Shown here: piece by piece, positions 34,035 through 37,781 of the stretch
Numbering within the stretch: the first letter of the stretch is position 1
How the letters are laid out: the number at the start of each line of letters is the position of its first letter
DNA from: Haloterrigena salifodinae
GTDB lineage: Archaea > Halobacteriota > Halobacteria > Halobacteriales > Natrialbaceae
Assembly: GCF_003977755.1 (NCBI RefSeq)
Contig: NZ_RQWN01000002.1
Location: forward strand, 186,001 to 250,000
DNA length: 64,000 nt
Reading direction: 5' to 3'
Position numbers and translations under genes: made by a program
Notes under the pieces: model-generated
What the model saw: the letters and a program-made list of their open reading frames with translations, nothing else
Databases searched by the model: none
What the model was told of the DNA's origin: nothing

Positions 34035-34421
34035 CTATAGATCCTGGAGTCGAATGCCGTCCTCGACCAGCCGGGCGTTGCGCTCGCGCTCGAGGTGGTC
34101 AGCGAGGTCGTCGTGGTCGTAGAGTTGGGCGATGACGTCGGCGTACAGCGTCCGCCACGCGATCGCGTAGATCGGCGACTGGCCCCACGCTCGCAGCTCC
34201 GGCACGAGGTCGTCGTAGGTGTCGCGGCGCTCCTCGAAGCGCTCGATTGCCTCGAGGACGCGACCGGCCGCCTCGCGGTCGTCGTCGGCGTCCTCGATCG
34301 CGCGGTTGAGTCGCTGTTCCCAGCCGGCGACGGCCTCCTGCATGTCCGCCGCGGCGGCTTCGTCGTCCTCCGGCAGTCGTTCGAGAACAGGTTTGGGCAC
34401 ACCGAGTGAGAGTTCGTCCAT
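34035..34421 (-). CDS. Uncharacterised helical protein (128 aa)
   Basis: MDELSLGVPKPVLERLPEDDEAAAADMQEAV begins an acidic, coiled-coil-like protein (QRLNRAIEDADDDREAAGRVLEAIERFEERRDTYDDL) ending in an amphipathic helical C-terminus. The start at 34421 follows a GC-rich haloarchaeal pattern; the extra 23 residues from 34490 are Ser/Thr-rich and doubtful. It marks the left flank of the AT-rich island. Confidence 0.7.
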   Translation of the reverse strand: MDELSLGVPKPVLERLPEDDEAAAADMQEAVAGWEQRLNRAIEDADDDREAAGRVLEAIERFEERRDTYDDLVPELRAWGQSPIYAIAWRTLYADVIAQLYDHDDLADHLERERNARLVEDGIRLQDL

Positions 34422-34535: not shown

Positions 34536-34916
34536 TCACTCGCCGTTTGTCAATATAACGTTCTTTACTTCTTCCAATAACAAACTACCATCAATATTTA
34601 GGTACCATCTCGGTAGCACAATAAACAGTAATAAGATCAACATGCTAACAGTAGCCCTTTGATTGAACCGGCCTACTGCCTCCAGACGTGGCAATGAATC
34701 AACTATCGAAGTAAACCAGGCCGGGGTAAGACCGACGATGCCGCTGATACTGATGGCACTGAGTAAAATTCCACCGACAATCATCAACATGAGCGCAACT
34801 ATTGAACCGACTTGTCTCTCCGTCTGGGATAATATAGCATCAGAAAACGCTGATATTCCGGCGACACCAATCACGATATAAAATCCCGTTTGTAGTATTG
34901 ATCCCTGGCTCATCAA
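34536..34916 (-). CDS. Small three-helix membrane protein of the AT-rich cassette
   Basis: A 126-residue protein with hydrophobic segments ILQTGFYIVIGVAGISAF, VGSIVALMLMIVGGILLSA and ATVSMLILLLFIVLP, and a short basic/acidic C-terminus. It is the last gene of the ComQ-like cassette, 130 bp after the precursor gene. An immunity, processing or export role is possible from position; sequence alone does not tell. No family recognised. Confidence 0.75.
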   Translation of the reverse strand: MMSQGSILQTGFYIVIGVAGISAFSDAILSQTERQVGSIVALMLMIVGGILLSAISISGIVGLTPAWFTSIVDSLPRLEAVGRFNQRATVSMLILLLFIVLPRWYLNIDGSLLLEEVKNVILTNGE

Positions 34917-35046: not shown

Positions 35047-35745
35047 TTAGATCCAGCTATTATTAGGGTTGTCCTGTGGATCCACTTTTGGACCTACCCC
35101 CGGGTAGAGTGTGATACTAACACCGCATCCTTCATTGTTGGCACAAATGACAGCTGCAGAGACACCTGCCGCTGCTGCGACCACCCATGCGGGAACAGCA
35201 CCAGGGCCAGAAATCACACCCGCACCAGATAGCGCTGCTATGATCCCTGTACCTGCACAGACACGACCTGACCAGTAGTTATTTAAATACACTGTCGCGC
35301 TAGGAGGGAGTGTATTAGCACTAAAATCGTTTTTACCACAATCAGAAGCCGCCGGAGTTACGATCGTTGATCGTTGAGCACGGGTAGCCGCGGCAAGATC
35401 TCCTTCGATGTACACAACTCCATCTTTTTCATCGAATTCCAGATGGCTATTATTAACGAGGTCGTTTACTTCCTCTATTCCGTCTTCCAGATTATACCTT
35501 TTCGCTGCTTCTGTAGCAGGTTCAATTTCGGTCCTAACCTTTCTATTGCTTGAGTTTCCAGCTAATTCCAGTTCTCCATTGTCGTTCAATACGATTTCTT
35601 CTGAACCTAATGCAGAACGTTGACTGTTACTTTCTTCAGCCGATGACACCGCGGGTATCACGCCCAAACCAGCGGCTGCAAAGGCACCTGATTTAATTGC
35701 TTTTCGTCTATTCAGCTTATGATCTTCTGTATTATTATCCTTCAT
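35047..35745 (-). CDS. Tat-exported precursor with hydrophobic Cys-containing C-terminal domain (halocin- or pheromone-like candidate)
   Basis: A 232-residue precursor. The N-terminus is a Tat signal (LNRRKAIKSGAFAAAGLG, cleavage likely after AVSSA). Residues ~40-140 are acidic and charged and look like a leader or immunity-type domain. The last ~95 residues contain four Cys (DCGKN, RVCAG, VICANNEGC) around a Gly/Ala-rich hydrophobic stretch (IIAALSGAGVISGPGAVPAWVVAAAAG), and the protein ends NNSWI. Layout (Tat signal, propeptide, Cys-containing hydrophobic peptide) recalls halocin precursors. The gene follows a ComQ-like gene, and Trp231 is next to last, so prenylation of a C-terminal Trp, as in ComX, is a hypothesis only. 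Confidence 0.75.
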   Translation of the reverse strand: MKDNNTEDHKLNRRKAIKSGAFAAAGLGVIPAVSSAEESNSQRSALGSEEIVLNDNGELELAGNSSNRKVRTEIEPATEAAKRYNLEDGIEEVNDLVNNSHLEFDEKDGVVYIEGDLAAATRAQRSTIVTPAASDCGKNDFSANTLPPSATVYLNNYWSGRVCAGTGIIAALSGAGVISGPGAVPAWVVAAAAGVSAAVICANNEGCGVSITLYPGVGPKVDPQDNPNNSWI

Positions 35746-35909: not shown

Positions 35910-36752
35910 TCATGATGGGTTCCACGATTCGATATCAATTGCTATTAATGGACGGAGGAGTTGCGCACGTTTCTCCGGTAAGTCAGTAACCAATATCTCA
36001 AGTGTTTCTTGCCAACCTGAAATCAGCTCTCTCACCTCTTCTTCGGGGAGAAGATTCCAAGCGTTCCACGGATCCGGATCACCAGCCTTGTACTGTTCTC
36101 CATCTAATATGAATTGGTCGAATTTAAAGTACACATCTCCAAACTTTTCTGCCTTTTCCAAACCAAATTCTCCTGATTCAGATATTATTGACACAATACC
36201 GGCGATAGTGCTGAATATATTTGCTTGCTTTCCAACTATTTCTAAATACCTTTTTCGACTTGGTTTAGATCTTAATTCTTCCATATCTCCTCCCCACATA
36301 GGCATAATATTTCTACAATAGTAATCAATAACACTATCCTCCAGCCTAGTGAGTTGTTGGACAAGTAGTGATTGAAGCAGTTCTTTGCCGATTAAAACGT
36401 TCTTTTTATAGCTATCAATCACATCTCCATCAATCAGATCATCTACTATATCATAATACTCTATAAATGTAAGTGTAAATGACATTAATTCACTGAGCAA
36501 CTCTCCGTTAGAATGTGACAAATACAACTGTTTAGTGATAAAGGGGAATGTAAGCATTGGTTTGTAATTTCTTTTCGGGAATATATCGCTAGAAGAAAAA
36601 GCCAACGATCTAATGTATTCTCTCTTCTCTTTCCGGTCGATCTCACTGAGGATATCTTCTATATAATAATCGATTTCGCTTTGAAAAGCAGTTATCTCTT
36701 TCTGGAATTGGTATAGATCTTCTTCTGACAAATATGTTGGTTTCCTGTACAT
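35910..36752 (-). CDS. ComQ-like isoprenyl diphosphate synthase homologue
   Basis: A 280-residue all-helical protein with trans-prenyltransferase landmarks in the right order. Lys60-Arg61 to Pro65 (PKRNYKPML) matches the GGKRxRP site. The first Asp-rich motif DDLID spans 104-108 inside EYYDIVDDLIDGD, strikingly like the DIMDDLEDED of Bacillus ComQ as I recall it. Lys175 in EIVGKQANIF matches the KT site. The second Asp-rich region FKFDQFILD (209-217) is partly degenerate. The family makes or uses isoprenyl diphosphates; ComQ prenylates the ComX peptide. The next gene in the transcript encodes an exported precursor. The start ATG is at 36752, preceded by AT-rich promoter-like DNA. An ordinary lipid-prenyl synthase is less likely given the divergence and context. 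Confidence 0.75.
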   Translation of the reverse strand: MYRKPTYLSEEDLYQFQKEITAFQSEIDYYIEDILSEIDRKEKREYIRSLAFSSSDIFPKRNYKPMLTFPFITKQLYLSHSNGELLSELMSFTLTFIEYYDIVDDLIDGDVIDSYKKNVLIGKELLQSLLVQQLTRLEDSVIDYYCRNIMPMWGGDMEELRSKPSRKRYLEIVGKQANIFSTIAGIVSIISESGEFGLEKAEKFGDVYFKFDQFILDGEQYKAGDPDPWNAWNLLPEEEVRELISGWQETLEILVTDLPEKRAQLLRPLIAIDIESWNPS

Positions 36753-36917: not shown

Positions 36918-37781
36918 CTACTGATGAAGTCGGTGTCGGGCTATCATCACCTCGTCGACGTACTCGTCGTCGATGCGGTACTGCTCCTTGTGGACGCCCT
37001 CGCGCTGCCAGCCGTTCTCCTCGAGGAACTCGATGGCGGTTTCGTTGGTCGCCGGCAGGTTCTGGTAACACTTCCGGTACCCGGCGTCACTGGCCCACTC
37101 GAGGCCGTACTCGAGGAGGCTCGAGCCGATCCCCTTGCGGCGGAACTCGGGCGCGACGCCGAGCGTGAGTTCGGCGGTGTGGGAAAGCGACGGCAGTTCG
37201 TGGGTGTCGACGTGGAGCCAGCCGACGACGCCGGATTCGGTCTCTGCGTCGTCGTCGTCCGATTCGTCGGTCGCCTCGTCGGCCGCCGACTCGAGACTCG
37301 CGACGAAACAGACCCGCGAACGCTCCTCGTTGGCCCGCACGAGCGCCGAGTCGCGCTCGAGTCGCGTCGCGACGTTCTCGGCGACGATGTAGGGCCCTTT
37401 GTCGGCGACCTCGCGCATCGTCTCGACGATCCCCTCGCGGTCTTCTTCCCGCGCCGGTCGAACCGTGACGGTGGCGTCCTCGAGGGCCAGTTCGGTCGCC
37501 GTTCCGCCGAGCGCGAGGCGGACCTTGCCGTCGGATTCGGTCAGATACCCCCGGTCCGTGAGCCTCTCGATGCAGGACTCGAGGTCCTCGGCGGGCGGAC
37601 AGACCGATTCGGTGTAGGTGCCGGATCGGGCCGGTTTCGAGTGGGTCGTTCCCGATTCGATGCGGATCGCGCGCGCGAGTTCGGCCGGTTCGACGGCCCC
37701 GTTTCGTTCGACGTACTCGTAGACCGTCCGTTCCAGTTCGTCGTCGAGATCCTCGGGCGACATCCGCGGCTGGGCGCTCAT
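36918..37781 (-). CDS. GNAT-family N-acetyltransferase with N-terminal winged-helix-like region
   Basis: A 287-residue protein. Residues ~1-95 look like a small winged-helix or helical domain (LDDELERTVYEYVERNGAVEPAELARAIRIESG... CIERLTDRGYLTES). The GNAT domain follows: TVRPAREEDREGIVETMREV, the acidic low-complexity insert ESAADEATDESDDDDAETE, then AELTLGVAPEFRRKGIGSSLLEYGLEWA with the R-x-x-G-I-G acetyl-CoA loop, and EENGWQREGV. Start at 37781 (MSAQPRMSPEDL). Substrate unknown. Its stop codon lies at the right border of the AT-rich island. Confidence 0.85.
   Translation of the reverse strand: MSAQPRMSPEDLDDELERTVYEYVERNGAVEPAELARAIRIESGTTHSKPARSGTYTESVCPPAEDLESCIERLTDRGYLTESDGKVRLALGGTATELALEDATVTVRPAREEDREGIVETMREVADKGPYIVAENVATRLERDSALVRANEERSRVCFVASLESAADEATDESDDDDAETESGVVGWLHVDTHELPSLSHTAELTLGVAPEFRRKGIGSSLLEYGLEWASDAGYRKCYQNLPATNETAIEFLEENGWQREGVHKEQYRIDDEYVDEVMIARHRLHQ

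Follow-up and report, generated by a model that had tools for sequence, protein, structure and literature searches.

The window, a 64,000-nucleotide stretch of Haloterrigena salifodinae DNA, contains an AT-rich inserted cassette of 2.5 kb with three minus-strand genes, delimited by alignment to genomes G295 and G356. The cassette, its genes, the parts of the precursor, and the flanking genes are the following:

34459..~36931, no strand assigned: AT-rich inserted cassette with the three genes
36918..37754, minus: flanking chromosomal gene (GNAT-like), outside the cassette; 71–97% identical in five congeners
35910..36752, minus: gene for a 280-aa protein resembling trans-isoprenyl diphosphate synthases, a candidate tryptophan prenyltransferase with FARM YDIVDDLIDGD and pseudo-SARM QFILDGEQ
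35047..35745, minus: Tat-exported precursor P0001, ATG start, 232 aa
35638..35745, minus: Tat signal peptide of the precursor, residues 1–36 (NRRKAIKSGAFAAAGLGVIPAVSSA), recognized from the sequence and the RR pair invariant in profile A1
35356..35637, minus: acidic middle of the precursor, residues 37–130, little conserved, absent in L081
35074..35355, minus: conserved C-terminal domain of the precursor, residues 131–224
35050..35073, minus: C-terminal tail DNPNNSWI, residues 225–232, Trp231 at position –2; an extension past the PQ end of the family
34536..34916, minus: 126-aa protein with four predicted membrane segments, candidate immunity protein, 130 nt downstream of the precursor
34035..34418, minus: flanking chromosomal gene, outside the cassette; 89–97% identical in five congeners

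The ORF at 35047–35745 was the subject of a preliminary description, and all the features listed there were confirmed; the strand, which it did not give, is minus. The description had overlooked the adjacent prenyltransferase-like gene and the genetic link of that gene to the C-terminal Trp.

In three congeners (G295, G181, and G254), the flanking genes are present with nothing between them and the cassette is absent from the site. The GC content is 37% in the enzyme gene, 47% in the precursor, and 44% in the membrane protein gene, and 65–67% in the flanking genes. The insertion site showed neither terminal repeats nor a gene for a transposase or integrase. The cassette appears to be horizontally acquired and recently inserted. 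Two genomes, G196 and G356, carry the membrane gene without the precursor or the enzyme at the same site, the two copies being 91% identical to each other and 48–50% identical to the window copy. The membrane gene of the window may have arrived with the cassette or be a replaced allele, and the lone genes in G196 and G356 may be orphan immunity genes or a sign that the gene is independent of the precursor. Within the plasmid and phage collections, the sole copy of the precursor was found on a Natrinema plasmid, annotated as a hypothetical protein, and no copy of the enzyme was found among viral contigs. A single viral-contig match to the precursor involved a large phage tail-like protein and was rejected as a chance match.

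The precursor and its family

The Tat motif of the precursor has its Arg pair at residues 13 and 14, followed by a hydrophobic h-region and the sequence AVSSA near residue 36. The 94 residues of the middle part include 21 Asp or Glu and 9 Lys or Arg, and this part is probably a propeptide. Residues 131–232 include 30 Gly or Ala, 5 Asp or Glu, and 3 Lys or Arg. The C-terminal domain itself runs from DCGKNDF through a Gly/Ala-rich hydrophobic stretch at residues 161–201 and NNEGCGVSITLYP to VDPQ. Cys residues are found at positions 136, 163, 201, and 207 and Trp residues at 158, 187, and 231, and the last two residues are Trp–Ile. AlphaFold gave no usable model of the precursor from an alignment of four sequences (pLDDT 31).

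Homologues of P0001 that have the Tat signal and the C-terminal motifs in common were found throughout Natrialbaceae, and the ORF is therefore not a chance reading frame. As a single query, P0001 retrieved divergent full-length homologues from other Natrialbaceae and matched L005 at E 1.4e-12. A profile of 13 rows (A1) matched full-length members at E as low as 6e-88 and detects about 30 members of the family, some of them broken; hosts with names include Natronorubrum halalkaliphilum, Natronobiforma cellulositropha, and Natrarchaeobius chitinivorans. The RR pair of the Tat signal, Gly137, Gly206, Gly208, and Gln224 are invariant or nearly so. The C-terminal domain follows the pattern CGxND ... 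[LI]DD ... Gly/Ala hydrophobic stretch ... NxGCGVxI (or NxGxGVxI) ... PQ, and P0001 has the features that define the family: the Tat signal, CGxND, the Gly/Ala stretch, NxGxGVxI, and PQ. Conservation, measured as the share of the commonest residue, falls from 0.48 for the C-terminal domain to 0.33 for the middle and 0.14 for the final eight residues of the window precursor. Four members (L075, L076, L083, and L086) carry frameshifts or an internal stop, a frequency of decay expected of conflict genes.

Sequence searches of Pfam, NCBIfam, PADLOC, PHROGs, and PDB with the precursor gave no significant match, and they yielded no enzymatic or surface-anchoring family. A PDB match to plantacyclin B21AG (E 2.7) was too weak and was left unused. 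The paralogue-like L002, located about 34 kb away in the same genome, matches over the Tat signal region only and is not a member. The family, of about 30 haloarchaeal members, appears to be so far unnamed and undescribed and looks like an antimicrobial one.

Two features that the preliminary description had listed are narrower than the family. All four Cys are present in the window protein, but only Cys136 and Cys207 are conserved, Cys163 and Cys201 being restricted to the window protein. The conserved pair mostly co-occurs (for example, both are found in L061–L063 and neither in L064, L067, or L081), and in L073, L074, L076, and L077 the second Cys is replaced by one after the LDD motif; the co-occurrence may be read as one conserved disulfide. 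Likewise, the terminal Trp–Ile is real in the window protein but not a family-wide feature, as it lies on the eight-residue extension and most homologues stop at PQ. The three Trp-tailed members form no supported clade in the tree.

The C-terminal domain is presumed to be the active part. In L081, the Tat signal is fused straight to this domain without a middle part, and the domain is therefore probably the active one. The same member bears on the proposal of a halocin-like precursor modeled on halocin C8 (HalC8), whose precursor has an N-terminal part that confers immunity. The proposal is partly supported. The layout of Tat signal, acidic middle, and hydrophobic C-terminal part and the recurrent small membrane protein downstream speak for a halocin-like secreted antimicrobial. 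An immunity role of the other part is not supported, as L081 lacks the middle part and immunity is more plausibly assigned to the membrane protein encoded by a gene of its own downstream.

The hydropathy of the precursor reaches 2.04 over 19 residues (starting at residue 183 or 184), a value that would also suit a surface protein held in the membrane by a transmembrane hairpin at 161–201 and retained by the cell. Tat-exported haloarchaeal proteins are frequently anchored. However, the patchy distribution, the strong divergence, the broken copies, and the membrane partners fit conflict genes better, and we consider a surface protein improbable.

The partners recur across the family. A small codirectional ORF coding for two or more membrane segments was found less than 200 nt downstream of 13 of the 33 members and 10 of the 204 neighboring genes (odds ratio 12.6), the latter being other genes in the same DNA subjected to the same automatic test; the members are kin and the significance thus overstated, while the count of 13 misses L083 and L086, where the ORF was misassigned and a small membrane neighbor is present, and omits six members with a polytopic partner of about 300 aa. 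In the subgroup of L069–L072, L075, and L080, a conserved polytopic membrane protein of this length is located downstream in place of the small one. The downstream membrane proteins differ in sequence between the precursor subgroups, which argues for repeated association. The combination of a precursor and a small downstream membrane protein looks like that of a bacteriocin and its immunity protein, and at the window locus the membrane protein gene lies directly downstream, as in bacteriocin-type loci.

The enzyme and the C-terminal tryptophan

The gene 35910–36752 lies upstream of the precursor, and its product, as a single sequence, had no match in Pfam even at E 5. A profile of 11 haloarchaeal sequences of the enzyme (A3) matched prenyl diphosphate synthases in PDB, among them a nonaprenyl diphosphate synthase at E 1.6e-8. 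The enzymes have kept the first Asp-rich motif, EYYDIxDDxxDxD, with D104, D105, and D108 invariant in 11 of 11 sequences. The second motif, QxxLDxxQ in the HMMER register, keeps the second Asp alone and has the other Asp positions replaced. The pattern Q213-x-x-x-D217 is invariant in A3, although the Gln is present at the same place in canonical synthases and adds little. The pseudo-SARM of the window enzyme opens with Leu, and the sequences of A3 have Leu, Val, Arg, or Thr there; the NDxxx or GDxxx of the strict ComQ definition was found neither in the window enzyme nor in A3, and the enzyme is thus no ComQ in the narrow sense. AlphaFold, given the one sequence, produced no usable model of the enzyme (pLDDT 40). 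The retention of the second Asp alone matches the degenerate second Asp motif of ComQ, the pseudo-SARM, and ComQ requires a Trp at the second to fourth position from the C-terminal end of its substrate (PMC5331326). In trans-IDS-like enzymes, according to a recent review, the pseudo-SARM site recognizes Trp, and all characterized members act on Trp (PMC13290415).

We found the enzyme at 11 loci besides the window, and at seven of these (L119–L125) it adjoins one to three Tat-exported, Cys-rich precursors. These seven are located in G043 (twice), G161, G141, G203, G321, and G207, with three precursors in tandem in G161. The Cys-rich precursors form one family (profile A5) with no recognizable kinship to the window precursor. 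Nevertheless, all nine of those beside the enzyme have a Trp at position –1 or –2. Among related precursors in enzyme-free genomes, the same is true for 1 of 40 (Fisher p = 5e-9; with one precursor per genome, 6/6 vs. 1/25, p = 1e-5), and these controls were picked by a profile from the Trp-ended set, a bias that should favor Trp ends among them. The sole case among the 40 read from enzyme-free genomes is L191 (G123:C1:105614-106234), with Trp at –2 (...SSTWC).

Enzyme-bearing genomes hold further relatives. L190 (G321:C3:580269-580955) and L193 (G207:C1:3421666-3422304) are Trp-ended, Cys-rich Tat precursors located far from the enzyme gene, possibly substrates modified in trans, and two relatives (in G207 and G308) have no Trp end. 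The remaining four enzyme loci (L126–L129) have no Trp-ending Tat neighbor, one of them being a contig fragment; the enzymes of L126, L127, and L128 possibly have a different function. L126 and L128 adjoin metabolic genes. Spread across Halobacteria, nearly all in enzyme-free genomes, is a large group of Tat-exported proteins (L166–L189 and L194–L209) that vary rapidly and have a short, Cys-rich C-terminal part; they are candidates for further secreted peptides.

Within the precursor family of the window, the picture is less uniform. Both the enzyme and the Trp tail are missing from most members. Two members that do have the tail, L066 (known from a contig of 3.6 kb) and L081, come from genomes without the enzyme, which makes the case weaker for this family; the tail may have another role. 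Both observations speak for a reading in which the product is a halocin-like antimicrobial without prenylation and the isoprenyl-synthase-like gene an unrelated passenger or a maker of terpenoids. Against it stand the tie of the enzyme family to C-terminal Trp in the unrelated Cys-rich precursors (9/9 vs. 1/40) and the single insertion and low GC shared by the precursor and the enzyme, and we regard it as unlikely.

On balance, the enzyme family is likelier than not to modify the Trp of some haloarchaeal precursors. A wider proposition has in our judgment slightly better than an even chance of being correct: that in haloarchaea a single ComQ/PalQ-like family adds a lipid to the C-terminal Trp in two or more unrelated families of Tat precursors, the Cys-rich peptides and the hydrophobic halocin-like domain of the window, in the cytoplasm and before the folded precursor is exported. 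At the window locus, the sequence evidence suggests that the enzyme probably attaches a lipid to the terminal Trp of the precursor, and we propose Trp231 in the tail DNPNNSWI as the prenylation site, based on the tail extension and the association between the enzyme and C-terminal Trp.

The link between the prenyltransferase-like neighbor and the C-terminal Trp revives the other alternative of the preliminary description, a signaling peptide, now in a ComX-like form: the cassette would be an archaeal counterpart of ComQ–ComX and the lipid-tagged C-terminal part a pheromone. An enzyme next to a Trp-tailed precursor is indeed the arrangement of ComQ–ComX, and the precursors vary fast, like ComX. 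The cassette has no sensor kinase or regulator, however, and the domain that would be released is about 95 aa long and strongly hydrophobic, in contrast to the 5–10 aa of ComX. The recurrent small multipass membrane partner also suits immunity better, and a role in signaling seems to us doubtful.

Proposed mechanism

In the model that we find best supported, and to which in full we give somewhat less than an even chance, the window cassette encodes a Tat-exported, proteolytically released, Trp-prenylated halocin-like antimicrobial and its membrane immunity protein. The 232-aa precursor would be synthesized in the cytoplasm, where the enzyme would transfer an isoprenyl group to Trp231, geranylgeranyl being the likely donor chain in haloarchaea. 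The folded precursor would be exported via the Tat pathway and its acidic middle cut off by extracellular proteolysis. The released C-terminal domain, disulfide-capable and Gly/Ala-rich, would enter the membrane of competing haloarchaea, aided by the lipid, while the product of 34536–34916, with its four membrane segments, would protect the producer. Read from sequence are the three genes and their joint insertion, the Tat signal and conserved C-terminal domain of the precursor, the kinship and motifs that link the enzyme to isoprenoid synthases, and the association of enzyme and Trp. We infer that the Trp is modified, that the domain is released by proteolysis, that it kills, and that the membrane protein confers immunity; the model is weakest on the killing and on which lipid is attached.

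Antagonism is common among haloarchaea and few halocin genes are known. The analysis adds a precursor family of about 30 members and a candidate immunity partner for many of them. It also suggests that archaea prenylate tryptophan, a modification that the literature we found describes outside archaea only. If correct, the attachment of a lipid tail before Tat export would be an unusual use of the pathway, and Trp-prenylated, Tat-exported proteins would form a class so far undescribed in haloarchaea.

Relation to known systems

Among the known halocins, HalH4 takes the Tat route and the HalC8 peptide contains about ten Cys. Both are C-terminal fragments freed from precursors (PMC12893001), and the active fragment of HalH4, from Haloferax mediterranei, is released by an extracellular protease, halolysin HlyR4 (PMC12893001). 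The window precursor resembles HalH4 as a secreted precursor with a C-terminal active part, its release being our proposal; by description, it is set apart by the larger size of HalH4 and by no prenyltransferase having been reported with HalH4. With HalC8, it has in common the Tat-exported precursor and the hydrophobic, Cys-containing C-terminal part, the cleavage again being proposed. By description, HalC8 is distinguished by being far richer in Cys than the window precursor, which has four, two of them family-conserved, and the family of the window differs further in that the middle part is missing in L081.

The likeness to ComQ–ComX of Bacillus and to PalQ and ChrPC, further tryptophan prenyltransferases of the trans-IDS-like kind, lies in the intact FARM, the degenerate second Asp motif, and the adjacent precursor with a Trp at most two residues from the C terminus. 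Unlike ComQ–ComX, the window system is archaeal, has a 232-aa Tat substrate in place of a peptide of about 55 aa, and comes without ComP and ComA; its pseudo-SARM begins with Leu, that of ComQ with Asn or Gly. The precursors at L119–L125 share with the window precursor the Tat signal, the acidic middle, the C-terminal Trp, and the prenyltransferase-like neighbor, but they contain 8–14 Cys in their last 80 residues and are not recognizably related to it.
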